NCBI RefSeq assembly: GCF_024171955.1
Contig: NZ_JAMTCS010000015.1
Coordinates: forward strand, 62,001-126,000
Length of the DNA: 64,000 nucleotides
Source of the DNA: Promicromonospora thailandica
GTDB taxonomy: Bacteria; Actinomycetota; Actinomycetes; Actinomycetales; Cellulomonadaceae
Direction of reading: 5' to 3'
Part shown: positions 7,535 through 22,723 of the stretch, one piece after another
Layout: each line of letters starts with the position of its first letter
How positions within the stretch are numbered: position 1 is the stretch's first letter
Translations under genes and position numbers: made by a program
Notes under the pieces: model-generated
The model's database searches: none
The model's input: only the letters and a program-made list of their open reading frames with translations
Told to the model about the DNA's origin: nothing

Positions 7535-8283
7535 CCCTGCGCCACGAGCATGCGCGACACCGTCTCGACGAAGCCGGTCGGCCCGCACACGTACACGCGC
7601 GGCTCCAGCTCGGGCGGCCAGCCCCACGCGGCGAGCTCGGAGTCGGTCAGGCGCCGCGGCCCGCGCAGCGCCGTGAGCGACACGGCGCGCGTGAAGATCG
7701 TCCGCGCCTCGAAGCCGTCGCCGCGCGCCGCGAGCCCGGCCACCTCGTCGGCGTAGAGCTGGTCCTGGTCGGTGCGCACGGAGCAGATCAGCCGGAACGG
7801 CGTCCGGTCGCCGGCGTCGCGCCGGGCGCGGGCCATCGCCATGAGCGGCACCAGCCCCGAGCCGCCCGCGAGCAGCAGCACGGGGGTCCCGGCGTCGCGC
7901 GCCGGGTCCCACACGAACCAGCCGCCCACGGGGCCGCGCACCTCGACGGCGGAGCCGACCGGGAAGGAGTCCACGAGGTACGGGGACACCTCGCCGTCGA
8001 CGACGCGCTGCACCGTGACCTCGATCCGGCCCGAACCGTCCGGGGCGCTCGCCAGGGAGTAGGACCGCTCGGCGGTGTACCCGTCGCCCGCCGTGAGCCG
8101 CAGGTCCACGTGCTGGCCCGGCTGGTGCCCCGGCCAGCCCGGCACGTCCAGCACGAGCGTCGCCGCCGAGGGGCTCTCGGCGCGCCGGCCCACCAGGGTC
8201 GCGACCTGCCACCCGGAGCGGACCGCGTACCGGCTGCCCAGCCGCCCGGTCGCCGTCGGCTCAGCGCCCACCTGATCAGTCAC
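7483..8283 (-). CDS. FAD/NAD(P)-binding ferredoxin-reductase-type oxidoreductase
   Basis: A 266-residue reductase with the FNR layout: a flavin-binding barrel with the FAD motif RSYSLAS at about residue 93, and a pyridine-nucleotide domain with LLLAGGSGLVPLMAMAR and the terminal VYVCGPTGFVETV. There is no iron-sulfur domain. The GTG start overlaps the upstream molybdoenzyme gene by eight bases, so the pair is coupled and this protein probably passes NAD(P)H electrons to that enzyme. The downstream end overlaps the convergent GNAT gene. Confidence 0.85.
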   Translation of the reverse strand: MTDQVGAEPTATGRLGSRYAVRSGWQVATLVGRRAESPSAATLVLDVPGWPGHQPGQHVDLRLTAGDGYTAERSYSLASAPDGSGRIEVTVQRVVDGEVSPYLVDSFPVGSAVEVRGPVGGWFVWDPARDAGTPVLLLAGGSGLVPLMAMARARRDAGDRTPFRLICSVRTDQDQLYADEVAGLAARGDGFEARTIFTRAVSLTALRGPRRLTDSELAAWGWPPELEPRVYVCGPTGFVETVSRMLVAQGHDPSRVRTERFGPAGG

Positions 8284-8896
8284 CCTGGTACCTCTGCTCG
8301 CGCCACGGGTCGCCGAGGTCGTGGTAGCCGAGCCGTTCCCAGAAGCCGGGCTTGTCCGTCGGCATGAGCGTGAGCGAACGCACCCACTTGGCCGACTTCC
8401 AGAAGTACAGGTGCGGCACCAGCAGCCGGGCGGGGCCGCCGTGCTCGGGGTGCAGCGGTTTGCCGTCGAAGGTGTGCGCGATCCACGCCTTGCCGCCGAG
8501 CAGGTCGGCCACCGGAAGGTTGGTCGTGTAGCCGCCGTAGGAGCCGACCATGGCGAAGTCCGCGGTGGACTCCACGTCGGCGAGCAGCACGTCGAGGGAC
8601 ACGCCCTTCCACCGCGTGCCGAACTTCGACCAGCGGGTGACGCAGTGGATGTCGACGGTGGGCGTCTCCTGCGGCAGGGCCATGAGGTCGGCCCAGGTCC
8701 ACGACGTCGACGCGCCCGCCTCGGTCGTGACGGTCAGGCTCCAGGTCGCGGCGCCGACGTTCGGCGTCGGCCCCGCGGACAGGACGGGGAACCCGTCCTC
8801 GACGTACTGCCCCGGCGGGAGGGCGACGCCGTCGGGACGGGGGCGGCCGTGGAAGCCCGGTGTGAGTGCGGGCGGCACCTCGCTCGGCTCGGTCAT
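8276..8896 (-). CDS. sulfite-oxidase-like molybdopterin oxidoreductase
   Basis: A 206-residue protein made almost entirely of the oxidoreductase molybdopterin-binding domain. The conserved molybdenum ligand is Cys85 in VDIHCVTRWSKFGTRWKG, and GGYTTNLPVADL, HPEHGGPARLLVPHLYFWKSAKWV and FWERLGYH are all family signatures. No Tat signal or dimer domain is present, so it is a short cytoplasmic member of the sulfite oxidase/YedY group. Its own reductase is encoded immediately downstream with an eight-base overlap. The substrate is not known. Confidence 0.85.
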   Translation of the reverse strand: MTEPSEVPPALTPGFHGRPRPDGVALPPGQYVEDGFPVLSAGPTPNVGAATWSLTVTTEAGASTSWTWADLMALPQETPTVDIHCVTRWSKFGTRWKGVSLDVLLADVESTADFAMVGSYGGYTTNLPVADLLGGKAWIAHTFDGKPLHPEHGGPARLLVPHLYFWKSAKWVRSLTLMPTDKPGFWERLGYHDLGDPWREQRYQGD

Positions 8897-9004
8897 GGCC
8901 TCACGGTAGCGGCGCGACTACGTGGGAGCCCTCATTGCCGGGCCCGCGGCGCGCTCCTAGCATCCAGGTGGCCTGTCTTTCACCCGCTGCCCGGAGGGTC
9001 AGTC

Positions 9005-9787
9005 ATGGACCGATCGCTGCTCACCCTGCCGCTCACCCTGCTGCTGACCCTGCTGCTGACCCTGGGCGCGCTCGTCGTCGGCGCCCCCGCGCACGCCGAC
9101 CCGCCGCCCAACCTGCCGCAGAACGCGACCGGGCTGGAGCAGTCCTTCTCCCCCGCCTACGACTACGACGGCGACGGCTGCTACGCCACGTCCGCCATCG
9201 GCCCCGACGGGACGATCGCTCCCGGGCTCGGCATCGGCGGCGCCGTCAACGGGCAGTGCCGCGACCAGTGGGACCTGGACGCCTCGCAGACGTACTCGCG
9301 CGAGAAGTGCAACAACGGCTGGTGCGCCGTCATGTACGCGAGCTACTTCGAGAAGGACCAGACGATGGACGGCCCCGTCGCGATCGGCAGCCACCGGCAC
9401 GACTGGGAGCACGTCGTCGTGTGGGTGGACCGGTCCTCGAACCAGGTCGAGCACGTGTCGCTCACCGAGCACAGCGGGTCGGCCACCTACCCGCGCTCGC
9501 AGGTGCGGTTCGACGGCACGCACCCCAAGGTCGTCTACCACAAGGACGGGGTGAGCACGCACCTCTTCCGGCTCGCGAACGGCAACGACGAGCCGCCGGA
9601 GAACCACTACGGCACGTGGCGCTACCCGCCGCTGGTGGGCTGGGACGGCTGGCCGAGCACAGCGCTGCGCGACCGGCTGACGGCGGCCGACTTCGGCTCC
9701 GCGAGCCTCAAGATCGACGACGGCGACTTCACCTGGTGGCTGGAGCGGATGAAGCCCGCCGGGATCCCGTTCGACCCGGGAGCCTGA
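9005..9787 (+). CDS. secreted necrosis-inducing NPP1/NLP-family protein
   Basis: A 260-residue exported protein. A signal peptide made of repeated Leu-Thr-Leu units ends near Ala31 (PAHA). The mature part has the NLP hallmark SHRHDWEHVVVW at residues 129-140, matching the family heptapeptide GHRHDWE except for its first residue. Four cysteines (59, 85, 102, 107) and a DYDGDG stretch before Cys59 resemble type II NLPs, which carry a second disulfide and a calcium-binding region. NLPs from oomycetes, fungi and some bacteria bind plant sphingolipids and can lyse membranes; many members are not toxic. The gene stands alone with GGAGGG before the ATG. Confidence 0.9.
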   Translation: MDRSLLTLPLTLLLTLLLTLGALVVGAPAHADPPPNLPQNATGLEQSFSPAYDYDGDGCYATSAIGPDGTIAPGLGIGGAVNGQCRDQWDLDASQTYSREKCNNGWCAVMYASYFEKDQTMDGPVAIGSHRHDWEHVVVWVDRSSNQVEHVSLTEHSGSATYPRSQVRFDGTHPKVVYHKDGVSTHLFRLANGNDEPPENHYGTWRYPPLVGWDGWPSTALRDRLTAADFGSASLKIDDGDFTWWLERMKPAGIPFDPGA

Positions 9788-9868
9788 CGCCCCGGGCGCT
9801 GTGACCACTGCCACGTCACATCGGCCTCCTCCACCTGGTCGAAGGGGTAAGACCACATGGAGGCAGCG

Positions 9869-11230
9869 ATGGAAAAGATCCTGATCGTCGGGGGCGGCTA
9901 CGCCGGCTTCTACACCGCGTGGGGGCTGGAGAAGAAGCTGCGCCGGGGCGAGGCCGAGGTCACCCTCGTGGACCCGCACGGCTACATGACCTACCAGCCG
10001 TTCCTGCCGGAGGTCACGGCCGGTTCGATCGAGGCGCGGCACGTCATGGTGTCGCTGCGCCGCCACCTGCACCGCACCACGCTCGTGGCCGGGCACACCA
10101 CCGCCATCGACCACGCGCACCGCACGGCCACCGTCCGGACCAACGACGGCGCCCTGCGCGAGATCCGCTACGACACGATCGTCGTCACCGCGGGCGCTGT
10201 GACCCGCACGTTCCCGGTGCCGGGGATCGAGCAGGAGGCGATCGGCCTCAAGCACGTCGAGGAGGCGGTCGCGATCCGCGACCAGCTGCTGACGGCGTTC
10301 GACCGGGCCGCCCTGCTGCCGCCGGGGCCCGCGCGGCGCCGGCTGCTCACGGTCACGGTCGTCGGCGGCGGGTTCACGGGGGTCGAGGTGTTCGGCGAGC
10401 TGCTGTCGCTGGCCACGAGCCTGCTGCGGCGGTACCCGGAGCTCGGCCGGGACGACCTGTCGTTCCACCTGGTCGACTCCAACGACCGCATCCTGCCGGA
10501 GGTCACCGACGAGCCGGGCCGCTGGGTGGTCCGCCACCTGCAGGGCCGCGGCGGCTCCGTCCACCTCGGCACGCAGGTGGTGTCCGCGGCGGACGGCGAG
10601 ATCCTGCTCTCGAGCGGCGAGTCGTGGGGCAACGGCCTGCTGGTGTGGGCCGCGGGCAACGGCAGCAACCCCGTCGTCGCCCGGAACACGGACCTGCCGG
10701 TGGACGAGCGCGGCCTGGTGCGCGTGCGCGCCGACCTGCGCGTCGGCACCGACGAGGCGGCGGTCCCGGACGCCTGGGCCGCGGGTGACAACGCCGCGGT
10801 GCCCGACCTCGCCTCCCCCGTGCCCGGCGCCCGGACGGTGCCCAACGCGCAGCACGCCGTCCGGCAGGGCCGGCTGCTGGCCCGCAACCTCGTCGCCGAC
10901 CTGCGCGGCCGCCGCGTGCGGCCGTACGTGCACCACAGCCTCGGCACGGTCGCGACCCTCGGCATCGGGCGCGGCATCTTCCAGTACCGGCGGATCGTGA
11001 TCACCGGGTTCCTGGCCTGGCTCATGCACCGCGGGTACCACGTGCTGGCCGTGCCGACGTGGGAGCGCAAGGTGCGGGTGCTGCTGGTCTGGGCCTCGGC
11101 GGTGCTCTTCGGCCGCGACATCGTGCCGCTGTCCACGGTCCAGCAGCCGCGGGCGGCGTTCCTCGCGGGCGGGGACCCGTTCGCCGACGCGTCGGCCGCC
11201 AGGGTGCCGGTGGTGCGCGATGCCCGCTGA
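9869..11230 (+). CDS. ndh: type II NADH dehydrogenase (NDH-2)
   Basis: Membrane-associated flavoprotein of 453 residues that oxidises NADH and reduces quinone without pumping protons. The FAD-binding GGGYAGFYTAWGLEKK lies at the N-terminus. VTVVGGGFTGVEVFGELL binds the nucleotide, and WAAGDNAAVPD is the second FAD motif. The C-terminal stretch with YRRIVITGFLAWLMHRGYHV resembles the membrane-contact region of actinobacterial NDH-2. ATG 9869 was chosen over ATG 9857 because GGAGG sits at the proper distance before it. It overlaps the following cytochrome b gene by 11 bp, implying a shared electron path. Confidence 0.88.
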   Translation: MEKILIVGGGYAGFYTAWGLEKKLRRGEAEVTLVDPHGYMTYQPFLPEVTAGSIEARHVMVSLRRHLHRTTLVAGHTTAIDHAHRTATVRTNDGALREIRYDTIVVTAGAVTRTFPVPGIEQEAIGLKHVEEAVAIRDQLLTAFDRAALLPPGPARRRLLTVTVVGGGFTGVEVFGELLSLATSLLRRYPELGRDDLSFHLVDSNDRILPEVTDEPGRWVVRHLQGRGGSVHLGTQVVSAADGEILLSSGESWGNGLLVWAAGNGSNPVVARNTDLPVDERGLVRVRADLRVGTDEAAVPDAWAAGDNAAVPDLASPVPGARTVPNAQHAVRQGRLLARNLVADLRGRRVRPYVHHSLGTVATLGIGRGIFQYRRIVITGFLAWLMHRGYHVLAVPTWERKVRVLLVWASAVLFGRDIVPLSTVQQPRAAFLAGGDPFADASAARVPVVRDAR

Positions 11231-13058
11231 CCCCGGCCGGCTGCGCGCCCTGACCGCGCGGCTCGCGGCCCGGCGGGTGCACCTGCGCTGGTCCGAGCTG
11301 TTCGGCGTCGTCACGGTCGCCTGCCTGCTGGTGCTCGCGGTGACGGGCGTGCTGCTGGCGACCTGGTACACGCCGTCGAACGACCTGGTCGCCTACGACG
11401 GCCCCTACGGGCCGCTGCAGGGCGCGACCGTGACCGAGGCGTTCGCCTCCACGATGCGCATCTCCTTCGAGGTGACCGGCGGGCTGCTGCTGCGCCAGAC
11501 GCACCACTGGGCCGCGCTCGTGCTGCCCGCCTCGATGATCATGCAGCTGCTGGTCACCTTCTTCACCGGCGGGTTCCGCCGGCCGCGCCGCGTCTCCTGG
11601 GTGCTGCTGGTCGGGGCGTTCGTCCTCGCGCTGCTCGCCGGCTGGAGCGGCTACGCACTGCCCGACGACATGCTCTCGGGCACCGGCCTGCGGATCGTCG
11701 AGGGCGTGGTGCTCAGCATCCCGTTCATCGGCACGTGGCTCACCGGGCTCATGTTCGGCGGCCCCTTCCCCGGCCAGATCATCGAGAACCTCTACCCCGT
11801 GCACGCCGTGGTCGCGCCCGTGCTGCTCGCCCTGGTGCTGGTCGCGCGCGCGGCGCTCGCCGTCCGGCACGGTCAGGCCGAGCAGCCGCCGTCGCTGCGC
11901 GCCACCCTCGGCATGCGCCTGTGGCCGGACGCGGCGCTGCGCGCCGCCGGGATGACCGGCATCACGACGGCGGTGCTGGTGCTGCTCGGCGCGACCTCCA
12001 CGATCAGCCCGGTCTGGTCCTACGGGCCGGCGTCGGGGGGCGAGGTCGGGGCCGGGAGCCAGCCCGACTGGTACATGGGCTTCCTGGACGGCGCGCTGCG
12101 CCTCGTGCCCGTGGGCTGGGAGACCGAGTGGGCCGGCTGGACCGTGACCTTCGCGACGCTCGTACCGCTGGCGGTCGTCGGCGGTTACTTCGTGCTGCTG
12201 GTGGTCTACCCGTGGCTGGAGGCGTGGATCGACCAGGACCGCCTGCCGCACGACGTGCTCGACCGGCCCCGCAACGTCCCGGCCCGCACCGGCATCGGGG
12301 TGGCCGGCGCGCTGTTCTACGGGATCCTGTGGGGCGCGGCGAGCGCCGACATCGTGGCCACCGAGTTCAGCGTGAGCTTCGAGGCGATCATCACGACGCT
12401 GCAGGTGGCGCTCGTCGTCGGACCACCGCTGGCGTTCGAGGTGACCCGGCGGATCTGCGTGGGGCTGCAGCGCAAGGACCGCGAGGTGCTGCTGCACGGG
12501 CACGAGACCGGCCGGATCGTGCGGCTGCCGAACGGCGGCTACGTCGAGGTCCACCAGCCCGCCTCGGGCGTAGAGCGCGCCCGCCTGGGCGTCGAGGTGG
12601 CGCCGACGGGCCGGGAGGCGCGAGCCGGGGTGGCGCGGGTTGTGGGGGCGACGCCGGTCGGGGCGGCGCCGGTCGAAGCCGCGCCCGTCGCGGCGACGCC
12701 GGTCGGGGTCGGCCTGGCCCGGGACACGTCGGCACGGGAGACGCCCGAGTCCGTGCCGGAGGCGCACCGGAGCAGCCGCCGCGCCGGCCGTGTGACCGCC
12801 CGGGACCGGGTACGCGGGTCGCTGGGGCGCGGGTTCGGCGTGGGACACGTGGTGCCGCGGACGACTACCGAGGAGCAGACGGAACCGCAGCCGGCGGACG
12901 GGCCGGCGAGGCCGGACGGGGCCGCAACGCTGGACGGGGCCTCAAGGTCGGACCGGCCTGCGGAGCCGGACTGGACCGCGAGGCCGGCCCCGCCGGCCCC
13001 GGCAGGACCGCCTGACCGCCGCACCCCGACGGAAGCGGCCGGACGGGACGTGGCCTGA
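11220..13058 (+). CDS. solitary cytochrome b (QcrB-like) with incomplete heme ligation
   Basis: A 612-residue relative of the cytochrome b subunit of actinobacterial bc1 complexes. Helix B contains RQTHHWAAL (His95), helix D contains LYPVHAVVAP (His195), and the quinol-site motif appears as QPDWYMGF at 281-288. The partner ligands 14-15 residues further on are replaced: Gln109 in SMIMQLL and Arg210 in LVLVARAAL, where standard QcrB has His. One heme (bL type) could still bind but the other should be lost. No Rieske or cytochrome c gene is nearby. The last 140 residues are Ala/Pro/Asp-rich and low-complexity. It is coupled to ndh by an 11-bp overlap. Role unknown; a quinone-reactive partner of NDH-2 is inference. 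Confidence 0.85.
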   Translation: MPADPGRLRALTARLAARRVHLRWSELFGVVTVACLLVLAVTGVLLATWYTPSNDLVAYDGPYGPLQGATVTEAFASTMRISFEVTGGLLLRQTHHWAALVLPASMIMQLLVTFFTGGFRRPRRVSWVLLVGAFVLALLAGWSGYALPDDMLSGTGLRIVEGVVLSIPFIGTWLTGLMFGGPFPGQIIENLYPVHAVVAPVLLALVLVARAALAVRHGQAEQPPSLRATLGMRLWPDAALRAAGMTGITTAVLVLLGATSTISPVWSYGPASGGEVGAGSQPDWYMGFLDGALRLVPVGWETEWAGWTVTFATLVPLAVVGGYFVLLVVYPWLEAWIDQDRLPHDVLDRPRNVPARTGIGVAGALFYGILWGAASADIVATEFSVSFEAIITTLQVALVVGPPLAFEVTRRICVGLQRKDREVLLHGHETGRIVRLPNGGYVEVHQPASGVERARLGVEVAPTGREARAGVARVVGATPVGAAPVEAAPVAATPVGVGLARDTSARETPESVPEAHRSSRRAGRVTARDRVRGSLGRGFGVGHVVPRTTTEEQTEPQPADGPARPDGAATLDGASRSDRPAEPDWTARPAPPAPAGPPDRRTPTEAAGRDVA

Positions 13059-16898: not shown

Positions 16899-18173
16899 TC
16901 ACACCGCGAACAACAGGAACAGCCCCGCCCACGTGTAGCCCACCATCAGCAGCACCGCGGGCAGCTCGTCGGCGACGACGAGCGTGTGCTCGCGGCCCGG
17001 GGCCGCGCGCAGCGCGCGGTCGTGTGCCGCGAGAACGCCCACCAGGTGGCCGAGGATGATGCACACGACCTGGACCACGGCGACCACCGTCGGGTCGGGC
17101 ACCACGCGCACCTCCGCGCCCGGCGCCACGCCCCACTGCTGCACGAGCAGCAGCAGGCCGCGCGGCCCCTCGACCACCAGCAGGGAGGCGTAGTGCGCCA
17201 GCGTGTAGCCGGCGGCGATCGGTACGAGGGGAAGGGCGATGTCGGCCCGGCGCGTCGTCCACCGCAGGCTCGCCGCCACCAGGGCGCACACACCCACCAG
17301 CGCGACGGTCGCCACCGGCACGGGGGCGCCGGTCGTCTGCACGAAACCCGCCCAGACCGGCGACCCGGACGCGCTGTCGAAGATCGTGGAACCCCACCAG
17401 ACCGCGACGAACGCGGTGCTCCCGCGCGGGTGGTCCACGGCGGTCAGGCCCGCCAGCGGAGACCTCAGCACGTGGCGGCCGTCGTCGTCCCGGCCGAGCA
17501 CGCTCAGGCGCCCGGCGAGCTCCGAGTACACCTCGAACCCGTCGCCGCGCGCGAACCAGCTCGCACCACGCACCAGCGCGCACCCCAGCTGGACGACGGC
17601 GTAGCCGGTGAGCCAGGTACCGATCAGGCGCGGGTCGGTGCGGTCGGGGGCGACCAGCTCCAGCCACACGAAGGCCAGCAGCGCGGCGACGGCCGGCCAG
17701 TGACCGGTGCGGCCACCGGGCGCGGCCGCCGGCCGGAGCCCCGACACCGGGACGCGCAGGACCAGGCACAGCCCCGCGTGCAGGGTCCGCAACGGGTTCA
17801 GCCCGCGCCACACGGGCCCCAGCAGCACGCTGACCGGCACCAGCCCGACCCACAGCCAGACGAAGAGCGCGTGCGCCGCAGGGTTGGTCGCGTCGCGTGG
17901 CCCGAGCAGCGCGTCACCGACGACGTAGCCGGCCACCGCCAGCACCACGAGGCGGAGCGGCACGCGCCACGCCCGCGAGCGCAGGACGGCGTCCCACACC
18001 GCGGGCAGGCGCCGGGCCCCGCCCGCACGCGGCGTGCGCCACAGCACCGTGACCGCGAGGAACGACAGGACCACGGCCACCGTGCCGGCCTGCAGCACGA
18101 GGTCGAACGGCAGCGGGAGGTCCTGCGAGCTGCCGACGCCGTGGGCCGCGAGCGGCGCGTGGCGCGGCGTCAC
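16899..18173 (-). CDS. multi-pass membrane protein, last gene of the four-gene cupredoxin operon
   Basis: A 424-residue protein with about ten hydrophobic segments. The N-terminus carries His5 and His11 in LAAHGVGSSQDLPLP, a form I associate with a widespread bacterial membrane family that some records label fenitrothion hydrolase (from memory, unverified). Other landmarks are PVWRGLNPLRTLHAG, WFARGDGFEVYSEL and GYTLAHYASLLVVEG, where further His residues lie within or next to helices. The GTG start sits within the stop of the cupredoxin lipoprotein gene, so it is translationally coupled to it. Enzymatic function cannot be assigned; see the finding on the operon. Confidence 0.6.
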   Translation of the reverse strand: MTPRHAPLAAHGVGSSQDLPLPFDLVLQAGTVAVVLSFLAVTVLWRTPRAGGARRLPAVWDAVLRSRAWRVPLRLVVLAVAGYVVGDALLGPRDATNPAAHALFVWLWVGLVPVSVLLGPVWRGLNPLRTLHAGLCLVLRVPVSGLRPAAAPGGRTGHWPAVAALLAFVWLELVAPDRTDPRLIGTWLTGYAVVQLGCALVRGASWFARGDGFEVYSELAGRLSVLGRDDDGRHVLRSPLAGLTAVDHPRGSTAFVAVWWGSTIFDSASGSPVWAGFVQTTGAPVPVATVALVGVCALVAASLRWTTRRADIALPLVPIAAGYTLAHYASLLVVEGPRGLLLLVQQWGVAPGAEVRVVPDPTVVAVVQVVCIILGHLVGVLAAHDRALRAAPGREHTLVVADELPAVLLMVGYTWAGLFLLFAV

Positions 18174-18655
18174 CGGACCACGAGCTGGAGCAGCAGGGTC
18201 TCGGGGTGGGCCTCGACGTCGTAGACACCGGGGACGTCGGCAAGCACCTCGAGGCACGCCGGGTGCCCGGGCCCGGCCTCGCCCGCGACGTCGTAGCCGT
18301 GCACGTGGATCTCCGCCGGGACGTCCGCCTCGGCCCGGAGCACCACGGTGGCGCCGAGGGGCACCTCGACCCGGTCCGGGGCAGGTTCGACGCGGCCGTC
18401 CTTGACCGCCACCTCGACCTGGACCGCCGTCACGTCGCTGCTCAGCGGACCCGAGCAGCCCTCGTCAGGCACCTCCGCCGGCGGCGCCGCGGCATTCTCC
18501 CCGGCGGACGACGACGGCTCCTGCGCGGGGCCCGCCGCCGCACACCCGGTCAGCACGACGACCGTCACGGCACCCGCCGCCGCGCCGCGGGTCACGTCAC
18601 GCACCAGGGCACGGGCACGGGCACGGGTACTACGAACGGCAACATCTCGGAACAT
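18170..18655 (-). CDS. cupredoxin-like lipoprotein
   Basis: A 161-residue exported lipoprotein: a basic N-terminus, a hydrophobic segment and the lipobox LTGC at Cys38. An acidic linker leads to a beta-rich cupredoxin-type domain (about 75-161). EIHVHGYDV places His117 and His119 close together, and HPAC and VEAHPE supply His131, Cys134 and His150, candidates for copper ligands. It would be anchored outside the cell membrane. Its ATG shares its A with the stop of the upstream gene, and its stop overlaps the start of the next gene, so it is an integral part of the operon. Copper binding is inferred from the fold and residues. Confidence 0.75.
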   Translation of the reverse strand: MFRDVAVRSTRARARALVRDVTRGAAAGAVTVVVLTGCAAAGPAQEPSSSAGENAAAPPAEVPDEGCSGPLSSDVTAVQVEVAVKDGRVEPAPDRVEVPLGATVVLRAEADVPAEIHVHGYDVAGEAGPGHPACLEVLADVPGVYDVEAHPETLLLQLVVR

Positions 18656-19620
18656 CAGCTCTCGCTCTCTGTGAAGTCAGGGGAAGGTGCAGGGTGGGCG
18701 GACGGCGCCGCGCGGCCGGCGAGCACGCGCAGCGCGCCTGCGCCGGCCACGGCGGTGGCGAGCCCGGCGCCGAGCACCAGCGCGACGAGGAACCGTTCGA
18801 GCGCGGGCGGCCCGGCGACGGGCAGCACGGCGAAGTGGAAGACGGTCAGGTCGGGCAGCACGAAGACGACGCTCAGGCCCGCGCCGGCGCAGACGCCCAG
18901 CACGCCCCCCGCGCGGCCGCGCAGCGCGGCGACAGCCGCGGCCACGACGAGGGGCCAGACGAGCAGCCCGATGCCGGTCGCGTCGAGGAACGTGCCCCAC
19001 AGGGGCGCCGAGCGGACGGCGAGGGTCGCGCCGACGACGTGCGCCACCGACGCGGCGACCACCAGCAGGCCGGACACGGCCAGCAGCACGTGCGGCCGGG
19101 GCGAGCGCCGGGCCAGCACGAGGAGCACCGCGGCGATCCCCGCCGCGAGCGCCCACCAGGACGCCGCGCGAGGCGGCTGCCCGGCGACGAGCTCGCCGGT
19201 GACGGTCACGCGCGTGGGTCCGACGGTCAGCGGCACCTCCCAGGTGCCCCTCGACGCTGCGCCGAGATCCCGGTCCAGCGTCGTGGCGCGGGCGTCGATC
19301 CAGGTGGCGGACCCGCCGTCCGGCACGGTCACCGGGACGGTCTGCCCGTCGCCTGCCGGGACCTCGACACGCATCCCGGTGTCGTTGCGCACCCGCAGGC
19401 GGGCGCCGTCCTCGATGGTGGTGACGCTCAGCCCGGGCACCTGCGGGGTGACGGCGACGACAGCGCCGCGCGCCCGTGTCGGGCTGAGCCCGCCGGCGTG
19501 CGCCGACGCCGGGGGGATCTGGGCCACGACCTGGGCGAGCGCCAGCAGCAGGACCACCGCGAGGCGCGGCAGGACCCGGCCGCGGACGGGTGTCCGGCCC
19601 GCACGCAGGCCGGCGCTCAC
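18655..19620 (-). CDS. membrane protein with secreted N-terminal beta domain starting at His
   Basis: A 321-residue protein. A signal-like segment ends in PPASA at residue 40, which would leave His41 (HAGG) as the mature N-terminus. An extracytoplasmic beta-rich domain of about 110 residues follows, then six or seven membrane helices; two His residues are near helices (VAHVVGATL and DLTVFHFAVLP). An N-terminal His after signal removal is a copper-binding device in CopC proteins and in PmoB. The layout also recalls CopC-CopD fusions, so copper transport is an alternative. GTG start overlaps the preceding stop by four bases. No confident family match. Confidence 0.6.
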   Translation of the reverse strand: MSAGLRAGRTPVRGRVLPRLAVVLLLALAQVVAQIPPASAHAGGLSPTRARGAVVAVTPQVPGLSVTTIEDGARLRVRNDTGMRVEVPAGDGQTVPVTVPDGGSATWIDARATTLDRDLGAASRGTWEVPLTVGPTRVTVTGELVAGQPPRAASWWALAAGIAAVLLVLARRSPRPHVLLAVSGLLVVAASVAHVVGATLAVRSAPLWGTFLDATGIGLLVWPLVVAAAVAALRGRAGGVLGVCAGAGLSVVFVLPDLTVFHFAVLPVAGPPALERFLVALVLGAGLATAVAGAGALRVLAGRAAPSAHPAPSPDFTESES

Positions 19621-20705
19621 GACGCCACGGCCGCCTGGCCGGCGGGAGGCCGGCCGGCGCGAGACCCGGCGTCGCCACCCACACCGATCCGCCGCACCAC
19701 GTACGCCGTCCCGGCGCCCGTGAGGCCCACCAGCGCCAGCAGCCCGCTGATCATGTGCAGGTTCCAGGTCGGCGCGTCGGCCACGACCGCCGCGGCCCCG
19801 AGCACGACGGCCCACACCACGACGGGTGCGAGGAAGGCGAGCGCGACCCACCGGGTGTCCTCGTGCAGGCGCCGGGCGGCGGGTGCCAGGAGGCGTGCGC
19901 CCAGCTCGGTGACCGCGGCAGCGGCGGCGACGGCGACGGGGAGCCAGGGTCCGGCCCCCTCGCCGAACACGAGGTTCATCACGAAGGCGGGCACCGCGAC
20001 CAGCACCGTCGGCGCGCCGGCCGGCAGGCGCCAGCGGCGGGTGAGCACGAGCAGCGGGACCAGCAGCACGACGGTGCTGCCCACGTAGGCGTGGAACGTC
20101 TGGGCGTCGAAGGAGAAGGTGTTCGGCTCGGGCTCGCCGGACCCGAGCAGCGGGCTCGCCAGGGCCGAGGCGTGCAGGGTGTAGATGTGCACGGGCAGGG
20201 CGGCGAGCACCGCGGAGGCGATCGTGACGACGGCGTCGGCCCCGCGCAGCCGCGGCGGCGCGCCGGACGACGCCACCATGAGCGCCGGCCCGGAGGCCAC
20301 CAGGACCATGCCCGCGATGATGAGGTAGTGGCTCGGGCTGAAGAAGATCTCGAGACCCCGCTCGATGCCGAACAGGTTGTGCCACAGGGTGTCGATGCCG
20401 CCGCCGACCAGCAGCAGCCCCATGCCGATGCCGGGCAGCCGCAGGGCGGCGGGCGTCTCCCGCAGGAGGCGGCGGTAGGTCACCTGCTCGGGCAGCCGGG
20501 AGCGCAGCAGCCACAGCAGCGTGAGGCCGCACGCGGCGATGCCGGAGTACATCACGGCGTGCCACGGCGTCCAGAACGTCTCCAGGTCGGGGATGGTCGC
20601 GTGGGCGAAGGCGTCGAGCTGCAGCCCGGCCACGAGCCAGAGGCTCGCTCCGAGCAGCGTCCAGCGCTCGCGGGCGGTGAACGTGGCGGGCGGTGATGCG
20701 GACAT
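19617..20705 (-). CDS. multi-pass membrane protein with duplicated D-x3-H...P-x-H motif
   Basis: First gene of the operon: a 362-residue protein with about nine membrane segments. Residues 31-49 hold Asp31, His35 and His49 with FWTPWHAVMYSG after the second His. Residues 105-126 repeat the pattern with Asp105, His109 and His126 and FFSPSHYLIIAG. PmoC of particulate methane monooxygenase binds copper through Asp156, His160 and His173 in a D-x3-H...P-S-H arrangement, so the resemblance is notable. Homology is not shown. Further His residues occur in LPVHIYTLHAS and FDAQTFHAYVG. A 13-bp tandem repeat lies just upstream. Confidence 0.6.
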   Translation of the reverse strand: MSASPPATFTARERWTLLGASLWLVAGLQLDAFAHATIPDLETFWTPWHAVMYSGIAACGLTLLWLLRSRLPEQVTYRRLLRETPAALRLPGIGMGLLLVGGGIDTLWHNLFGIERGLEIFFSPSHYLIIAGMVLVASGPALMVASSGAPPRLRGADAVVTIASAVLAALPVHIYTLHASALASPLLGSGEPEPNTFSFDAQTFHAYVGSTVVLLVPLLVLTRRWRLPAGAPTVLVAVPAFVMNLVFGEGAGPWLPVAVAAAAAVTELGARLLAPAARRLHEDTRWVALAFLAPVVVWAVVLGAAAVVADAPTWNLHMISGLLALVGLTGAGTAYVVRRIGVGGDAGSRAGRPPAGQAAVAS

Positions 20706-20855: not shown

Positions 20856-21524
20856 TCACCGGCCCGGTACCACCAGCCCGTTCTCGTAGCCGAAGACGAC
20901 GGCCTGCACCCGGTCGCGCAGGCCGAGCTTCTGCAGGATCTTGCTGACGTGCGACTTGACCGTCTGCTCGCTGATGACGAGCCCCTGCGCGATCTCGCCG
21001 TTGGACAGGCCGCGCGTCATCAGGGTCAGCACCTCCCGCTCGCGCTCGGTCAGGGTGCGCAGCACGGGGTGCGCGGCCGGGTCGCGCGGGGCGGCCTCGA
21101 CGAACCGTTCGATGAGGCGCTGCGTGATCGCGGGCGCGAGCAGCGCGTCGCCGGAGGCGACCACGCGGACGGCGGCCGCGAGCTCGTCGGGGCTGGAGTC
21201 CTTGAGCAGGAAGCCGCTGGCCCCCGCCCGCAGCGCCTCGTACACGTAGTGGTCGGCGTCGAACGTGGTCAGCATGAGCACCCGCGGCCGGTCGGGGCGG
21301 GTCGCCGCCGGGCCGAGCAGCTCGCGGGTCGCGGCCAGGCCGTCGAGCTCCGGCATGCGCACGTCCATGAGCACGACGTCGGGCCGCAGCCTGCGCGCCT
21401 GGTCCACCCCCGCGCGCCCGTCGGCGGCCTCGCCCGCGACGGTGATGTCGTCGTGGGAGTCCAGGATGGCGCGGATGCCCACCCGGATCATCGGCTGGTC
21501 GTCCACCACGAGCACGTCGATCAT
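20856..21524 (-). CDS. NarL/LuxR-family response regulator
   Basis: A 222-residue response regulator. The receiver domain has the acidic pair Asp8-Asp9, phosphoacceptor Asp54 in VVLMDVRMPE and the conserved Lys in GFLLKDSS. A LuxR-type helix-turn-helix closes the protein (LTEREREVLTLMTRGLSN and ISEQTVKSHVSKILQKL). It overlaps its sensor kinase gene by four bases. Targets are unknown; the operon just downstream on the same strand is a candidate only because of position. Confidence 0.93.
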   Translation of the reverse strand: MIDVLVVDDQPMIRVGIRAILDSHDDITVAGEAADGRAGVDQARRLRPDVVLMDVRMPELDGLAATRELLGPAATRPDRPRVLMLTTFDADHYVYEALRAGASGFLLKDSSPDELAAAVRVVASGDALLAPAITQRLIERFVEAAPRDPAAHPVLRTLTEREREVLTLMTRGLSNGEIAQGLVISEQTVKSHVSKILQKLGLRDRVQAVVFGYENGLVVPGR

Positions 21525-22723
21525 CTGCCACCTTCCTCGTCGGGCCCCGCGGGCAGCGGGAGCCGTGCCGTGACCGCGTAGCCGCCGTCGGGCCGGGGGC
21601 CGTGGACGAGCTCGCCGCCCAGGCGGGCCGCCCGCTCTCGCATGCCCGTGACCCCGAGGCGCGGGCGGTGCGCGCCGTCGTGCGGCTCGACGCGTGCGGG
21701 CACCCCGCGTGTGTTGACGACGCTCACCGTCAGCCCCGCACCCGCTCGGTCCACCCGCACGGTCGCCGAGGAGCCGTGGGCGTGCCGGACGACGTTGCTC
21801 AGCGCCTCCTGCACGATGCGGTACACGGTGGTGCCCACGATGTCGGGCACCTGCCCCACCTCCGGGGCGACGCTCAGCGTGACGGGTCCGCCGTACCGGC
21901 CGGTGGCCTGGACGAGCTCGGGCAGGCGGGAGAACCCGGGCGCGGGGCCGGTCTCCGACTCGGTGTCGGTGGCGCGCAGCACGCCCAGGAGCTGGCGCAT
22001 CTCGCCGAGGGCGCCGCGGGCGGCCGCGGCGATGGCCGTGAACTCGTCGCGCGTGCCCGGGTCCGCGTCCGGGAGGCGGTACGGCGCCGACGTCGCCTGC
22101 ATGTGGATCACGGACATGCTGTGCGCCACGACGTCGTGCAGCTCGCGCGCGATCCGGGTGCGCTCCTCGACGAGGGTGCGTCGCTCGTGCTCCACCTCGG
22201 CGTCCCGCCGGGCCGCGGCGAGCTCGCCGCGGATCCGCTGCCGGTACCGGTAGGCGGTGCCTGCGATCAGCGCGACGAGGGAGCCCGCGCCGAGCACCAC
22301 CAGGGCGAGCGTCTCGTCGTACGGCGTCAGCTTGTCATCGGTGCCGGACAGCGCGACCAGCAGCACGGACAGCCCGGCGAGCGTCCACCAGGCGCCGACC
22401 GCGACCTGCCACGCGTGCCGCAGGGCGACCAGCCCGATGTGGGCCACCAGCACGCAGATGGTCACGGTCGGGAACGGCTCGGACGCGGCCGGGCCGGACG
22501 CCGCGAGGTTCAGCGTCACGGTCGCGGCACCCTGGGCGAGCGTGGCCGGCACGGGGTGGCGCAGCGCCACCGGCAGCGCCGCGCACGACACCGAGCTCAC
22601 CACGTACGCCACGAACGGATCCGCCCCCGCGCGGTTGGCCTCCAGGGCCAGCGCGATCATCCCGAACGCCGCCGCCACCGAGACCACGGCGGTCCACAGG
22701 AGGTCGGGGCGGCCGGTCGTCAC
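21521..22723 (-). CDS. two-component sensor histidine kinase (HisKA_3 type)
   Basis: A 400-residue membrane kinase. The first 160 residues hold four or five membrane helices with little extracytoplasmic sequence. The dimerisation box IARELHDVVAHSMSVI places the phosphorylated His at 196. The ATP-binding domain follows with YRIVQEALSNVVRHAHG and GVTGMRERAARLGGEL. This is the common NarX/DesK-type kinase of actinobacteria and it precedes the response regulator with an ATGA overlap. The lack of a large sensor domain suggests a membrane or cell-envelope signal. Confidence 0.92.
   Translation of the reverse strand: MTTGRPDLLWTAVVSVAAAFGMIALALEANRAGADPFVAYVVSSVSCAALPVALRHPVPATLAQGAATVTLNLAASGPAASEPFPTVTICVLVAHIGLVALRHAWQVAVGAWWTLAGLSVLLVALSGTDDKLTPYDETLALVVLGAGSLVALIAGTAYRYRQRIRGELAAARRDAEVEHERRTLVEERTRIARELHDVVAHSMSVIHMQATSAPYRLPDADPGTRDEFTAIAAAARGALGEMRQLLGVLRATDTESETGPAPGFSRLPELVQATGRYGGPVTLSVAPEVGQVPDIVGTTVYRIVQEALSNVVRHAHGSSATVRVDRAGAGLTVSVVNTRGVPARVEPHDGAHRPRLGVTGMRERAARLGGELVHGPRPDGGYAVTARLPLPAGPDEEGGR

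Follow-up and report, generated by a model that had tools for sequence, protein, structure and literature searches.

A four-gene operon of Promicromonospora thailandica whose first gene is best explained as encoding a remote PmoC homologue

Introduction

A 64,000-nucleotide stretch of the Promicromonospora thailandica genome (contig NZ_JAMTCS010000015.1, positions 62,001 to 126,000; hereafter, the window) carries four minus-strand genes, A-B-C-D, at 16899-20705, and the question that they raise is whether a set of membrane and secreted proteins without above-cut-off matches in Pfam and NCBIfam could be a relative of the copper membrane monooxygenases (CuMMOs), a copper-handling system, or neither. 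A sequence-only reading of the locus had described the genes as overlapping, which is correct (successive overlaps of 4, 1 and 4 bp), and had proposed a distant or convergent copper membrane complex. Part of this proposal is upheld here, since A behaves as a remote homologue of PmoC in profile comparisons, whereas B as a counterpart of PmoB is unsupported. The four genes are as follows:

Gene A: 19617-20705, minus strand; 362 amino acids, ATG start; polytopic; residues ~12-155 are best explained by remote homology to PmoC/AmoC
Gene B: 18655-19620, minus strand; 321 amino acids, GTG start; signal-like N-terminus, immunoglobulin (Ig)-like beta domain and ~six transmembrane helices
Gene C: 18170-18655, minus strand; 161 amino acids, ATG start; cupredoxin-like lipoprotein with an HVH motif
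Gene D: 16899-18173, minus strand; 424 amino acids, GTG start; polytopic, with an N-terminal AHG motif and conserved H327, H376 and H384

Gene A and the metal sites of PmoC

In PmoC, copper is bound at CuC by Asp156, His160 and His173 and at CuD by Asn227, His231 and His245, and CuD has been put forward as the active site of particulate methane monooxygenase, or pMMO (PMC12576850). The two motifs initially noticed in A, D31-x3-H35...H49 and D105-x3-H109...H126, are indeed present and are conserved among homologues, as a check on the proposal had required:

CuC-like triad of A, D31/H35/H49: 20559-20615, minus strand; codons 20613-20615, 20601-20603 and 20559-20561; with TPxH and Y53
CuD-like triad of A, D105/H109/H126: 20328-20393, minus strand; codons 20391-20393, 20379-20381 and 20328-20330; each residue in 42/42 rows

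Among 42 aligned A homologues, with identity down to ~22%, H35, H49, D105, H109 and H126 occur in 42/42 and D31 in 41/41, the remaining row being truncated. Invariant columns over the 42 rows are H35, W48, H49, Y53, G55, D105, W108, H109, G113, S123 and H126; H173, H178, H205 and H317 are conserved in roughly the operon group only (17 or 18/42). The six Asp and His residues of A follow the ligand order of PmoC (31-35-49-105-109-126 versus 156-160-173-227-231-245), the second triad starts 74 residues beyond the first Asp in A, compared with 71 in PmoC, and an aromatic residue stands at +4 of the third ligand in both (Y53 and F177, respectively). The CuD Asn of PmoC is replaced by Asp in every row of A (42/42) and of a second family, A2 (31/31), with both CuD His residues invariant.

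A profile combining the cores of A and A2 matched the PmoC core in HHalign with Prob 80.9 and E 1.3e-5, a value for one pairwise comparison. Control clusters of open reading frames (ORFs), 41 in number, stayed at Prob <= 2.1, which is an easy test, as these ORFs lie around the near operons and probably include shadow frames; reversed profiles gave 0.3 and 0.1, and PmoA and the two halves of D served as membrane-family controls. Moreover, a hidden Markov model (HMM) of the A core retrieved the M. chubuense PmoC at E 8.8e-4 (17.2 bits) from a set of 10 PmoC, 5826 ORFs and 4000 shuffles, in which ORFs from loci without A did not exceed 9.0 bits, leaving aside A, A2 and PmoC proteins. In the reciprocal PmoC search, the best A appeared at E 6.8e-4 and the first unrelated ORF, permease-like, at E 0.078.

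Other comparisons gave weaker results. The A core alone did not match the PmoC core significantly (Prob 4.8), and neither did full-length A (P 0.07), for which reversed controls scored higher, despite the ligands being in register in the best local alignment; HHalign gave a significant match only after the profiles were cut to the cores and A2 was included, and the predicted structure of A gave only a middling match to AmoC. By the curated model, A does not appear to belong to PmoC/AmoC in the strict sense, as Pfam assigns it no family at E <= 1, PF04896 included. Nevertheless, A shares with PmoC/AmoC/HmoC both triads and TPxH with the aromatic residue at +4, co-linear over A ~12-155, and this profile similarity running along the copper ligands would place it in the broad PmoC-containing superfamily. 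It differs in lacking the N-terminal PmoC helices, in having extra C-terminal helices, in the change of the CuD Asn to Asp, in being, like A2, unrecognised by Pfam, and in having no recognisable PmoA/PmoB partner. A search of the A profile against PDB sequences returned no CuMMO, the sole match being a G-protein-coupled receptor (E 0.024) that was taken as chance.

Recurrence of the operon and the A2 family

Co-occurrence of the gene set had been chosen beforehand as a check, and the order A-B-C-D is found again, beyond what chance would give, in 26 public loci. Scanning genome contigs for the pattern yielded 29 loci, 26 of which come from Promicromonospora and Actinoplanes/Paractinoplanes/Amorphoplanes; in these, tblastn (E <= 1e-3) detected A in 26/26, B in 25/26, C in 18/26 and D in 26/26, with L046 counted for D by the D tail only. 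At this locus of Actinoplanes subtropicus (7977-9241), A is kept, D is a tail only, and B and C are undetectable by tblastn. Promicromonospora sp. AC04 (L030) has 76% identity to A of the window, and a search of 13 Promicromonospora genomes gave a strong A match in the window's own genome and three others, one of these matches containing a TGA, and a weak match of 57 residues in a fifth. Beyond the operon, A-like proteins were found in 20/396 sampled Actinomycetota genomes, at least one of them (G190) being an A2 protein, and, outside Actinomycetota, as single records in Chloroflexota (Dictyobacter) and Paenibacillus.

The A2 family came to light through a supposed decoy, an ORF of L127 (3419-5200) with a score of 21.2 bits in the A-core HMM search. 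These proteins of ~600 residues, found in 45/396 genomes and without a Pfam family at E <= 1, have a PmoC-like core at ~60-200, further helices and a C-terminal beta-like part. Their alignment holds 31 rows, equivalent to 30 distinct proteins because the query duplicates the L162 protein, and D82, H86, R91, D92, H100, D158, H162 and H176 are each present in 31/31, so that all six positions of the two triads are kept, with R91 at +9 from the first Asp, which is the position of R165 in PmoC. A2, C and D are contiguous, with C and D directly behind A2, in 6/6 fetched same-class genomes, all chosen because A2 and D were already known to be side by side there. An origin of A2 as an A+B fusion was not supported (A2 versus the B beta domain, Prob 0.3; A versus A2 outside the core, Prob 3.2).

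Genes B, C and D and their link to CuMMO operons

The signal-like N-terminus of B ends between A40 and H41, and H41 is conserved in 18/18 rows, and in 28/29 of another alignment; His41 is the probable mature N-terminus. A predicted model places the beta domain at ~50-146 and helices at 152-304. The sequence-only reading was broadly borne out as to a start leading up to His41, the beta domain and the helices (6-7 in that reading, ~six here), but the resemblance to PmoB found no support: neither B nor C matched the PmoB profile (Prob 0.2 and 0.3, respectively), and the three-His CuB site was not found in B, whose beta domain carries the N-terminal His only and has no HxH. PmoB has two helices, versus ~six in B. 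Judged by sequence, neither B nor C is recognisable as a PmoB subunit with a three-His CuB site in one protein, a feature of CuMMO complexes. Parts of A, B and D scored Prob <= 1.5 against a five-sequence PmoA profile, from which a remote relative could escape. Matches of the B profile to PDB sequences were de novo designed Ig-like proteins. CopC-CopD fusions have a layout like that of B, with an N-terminal-His beta domain and a membrane part; however, A-D have no match to the Pfam CopC or CopD models at E <= 1. On a Pseudonocardia plasmid (L097, 5422-6579), C and D are preceded by a protein with, by eye, two B-like beta-domain copies.

Gene C encodes a protein with a lipobox-like G37-C38 in 22/22 rows, an HVH motif and further Cys and His residues nearby, as first described, although its similarity to cupredoxins stays below threshold (Cupredoxin_1, PF13473, E 0.0048, 17.3 bits, cut-off 27). 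B and C are fused in 2/26 loci, from two Actinoplanes species (L048 9011-10309 and L054 9032-10249), where C is joined to the end of B with its lipoprotein-like signal retained inside. The AHG motif reported for D is A10-H11-G12, invariant in 20 rows. The D profile had no match among PDB sequences, and a possible resemblance to "fenitrothion hydrolase" was dropped, the literature search giving unrelated works only.

C and D lie within ~10 kb of a CuMMO operon on 4/4 actinobacterial plasmids with a PmoC match, which amount to ~three independent cases because the two Rhodococcus clusters are alike:

CuMMO plasmids with C and D: M. chubuense NBB4, M. dioxanotrophicus PH-06, Rhodococcus WAY2 (C assigned by position alone) and Rhodococcus ZPP

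As in the operon, a homologous D stands beside a C-like gene on these plasmids; there the pair is near pmoCAB and annotated as hypothetical, whereas here it is behind A-B. Co-occurrence of D and CuMMO at the genome level is uninformative because D is common (52/296). On a Haloferax mediterranei plasmid (L100, 5153-10699), a D-family gene adjoins a heavy-metal P-type ATPase, and a DUF7350/Iron_transport protein gene lies two upstream of it.

Copper handling or catalysis

Relatives of CsoR, CopZ, CopA or multicopper oxidase were found near 7/30 distant A stretches, in one of which (L131) A was not re-found by tblastn, and near 0/20 control stretches, for which nine of these genomes were used. 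Three of the seven positive loci had supplied the eight queries, which leaves four independent positives. The tested copper genes were beside 0/26 near operons and in none of 20 A2 regions, and the CopC query matched one control stretch; a gene annotated CopC adjoins A2 on the M. vanbaalenii JOB5 plasmid.

The favoured reading, held with somewhat more confidence than doubt, is that A-B-C-D constitute a copper-dependent membrane system with A as a diverged PmoC-superfamily core that kept both metal sites, without recognisable PmoA/PmoB, devoted to copper handling. On the side of sequence, it has the conserved ligands, the homology of A to PmoC, the recurrent operon and the linkage of C and D to CuMMO. 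The invariance of both triads, one of CuC and one of CuD type, suggests copper, and the lack of recognisable PmoA, PmoB and CuB, together with copper genes near some relatives, makes handling likelier than catalysis. Copper would be the metal and would flow through what may be a complex of these proteins: the cupredoxin-like lipoprotein C, with its HVH motif, would collect extracytoplasmic copper, possibly along with the N-terminal His of B; D would assist its transfer to A, at whose membrane face two sites would lie side by side; and A would hold or relay it there, its physiological role being to load cuproproteins or keep copper in balance. Where C and D accompany a true CuMMO, they would serve that enzyme.

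Alternatively, the operon could encode a new O2-activating copper membrane enzyme for a small substrate, in which the CuD-like site of A would be active, B and C would supply electrons or copper, and His41 of B and the HVH of C would perhaps share a CuB-like site. This is the best placed of the rivals and still unlikely. The invariance of both triads, the standing of CuD in pMMO, the company that C and D keep with real CuMMOs and the lack of tested copper genes near operon-type loci are consistent with it; PmoA and PmoB relatives were not found, B has no three-His CuB site, the 18 largest neighbour clusters contain no catabolic gene set, several A and A2 relatives are near copper genes, and the CuD Asn is Asp in A and A2, all of which argue otherwise. 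A bolder proposal, judged rather unlikely as well, is that PmoC has its missing outgroup in A and A2, that is, widespread actinobacterial two-copper-site O2-activating membrane enzymes without PmoA/PmoB, from or alongside which the CuMMO core would have evolved.

Convergence, by which A would be an unrelated polytopic metalloprotein with two independently arisen D-x3-H...H motifs, is improbable in view of the combined-profile E-value with flat controls, the reciprocal HMM ranking, the identical ligand order with near-equal spacing, and the common second-shell positions (Y53 for F177, and R91 of A2 for R165). Least probable of all is a role in transporting or sensing a small molecule or a metal other than copper, with copper incidental, which the polytopic nature of A and D, the lack of tested copper genes near most loci (23/30 distant, 26/26 near) and the Iron_transport domain near the haloarchaeal D would allow, but against which stand the HVH cupredoxin-like C, the linkage of C and D to CuMMO, and the copper genes near a subset of loci.

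Genomic surroundings

Two regulatory genes precede the operon:

Response regulator, a possible regulator of the operon: 20856-21524, minus strand; Pfam Response_reg and GerE
Sensor histidine kinase, overlapping the response regulator: 21521-22723, minus strand; Pfam HisKA_3

Around the relatives' operons, no such response regulator gene is among the neighbour clusters considered, which are the 18 largest and from which a GC-content filter had removed some frames, including B and C. A LexA-like ORF, at varying distance, is the most frequent neighbour (14/27 loci) once A-D and shadow frames are set aside. Elsewhere in the window, on the plus strand (9857-13058), an NDH-2-like pyridine-nucleotide oxidoreductase gene overlaps one for cytochrome b (Cytochrom_B_N_2), an apparent respiratory pair according to Pfam.

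PF02461, PF04896 and PF04744 were unmatched in the genome of the window, as in the control genomes, which gave no match either; in another search, the PF04896 model found two actinobacterial PmoC. Viral contigs yielded no PmoC by the patterns used. Genes of amoC type on Nitrosomonas and Methylocystis plasmids (L103, L105 and L106) have no annotated amoA or amoB within ~4 kb, the annotation being incomplete.

Implications

CuMMOs that are divergent but have all three subunits, A, B and C, have been described (PMC9038741, PMC12533140), and a literature search that did not reach most subscription papers or any preprints retrieved no description of a PmoC relative outside CuMMOs. The occurrence of both triads without recognisable PmoA/PmoB would separate the metal sites of PmoC from the monooxygenase, and this separation would make the questions of which PmoC site performs the chemistry, and of how CuMMOs originated, testable in a simpler system. 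Moreover, C and D become new candidate copper-loading factors of actinobacterial CuMMOs.
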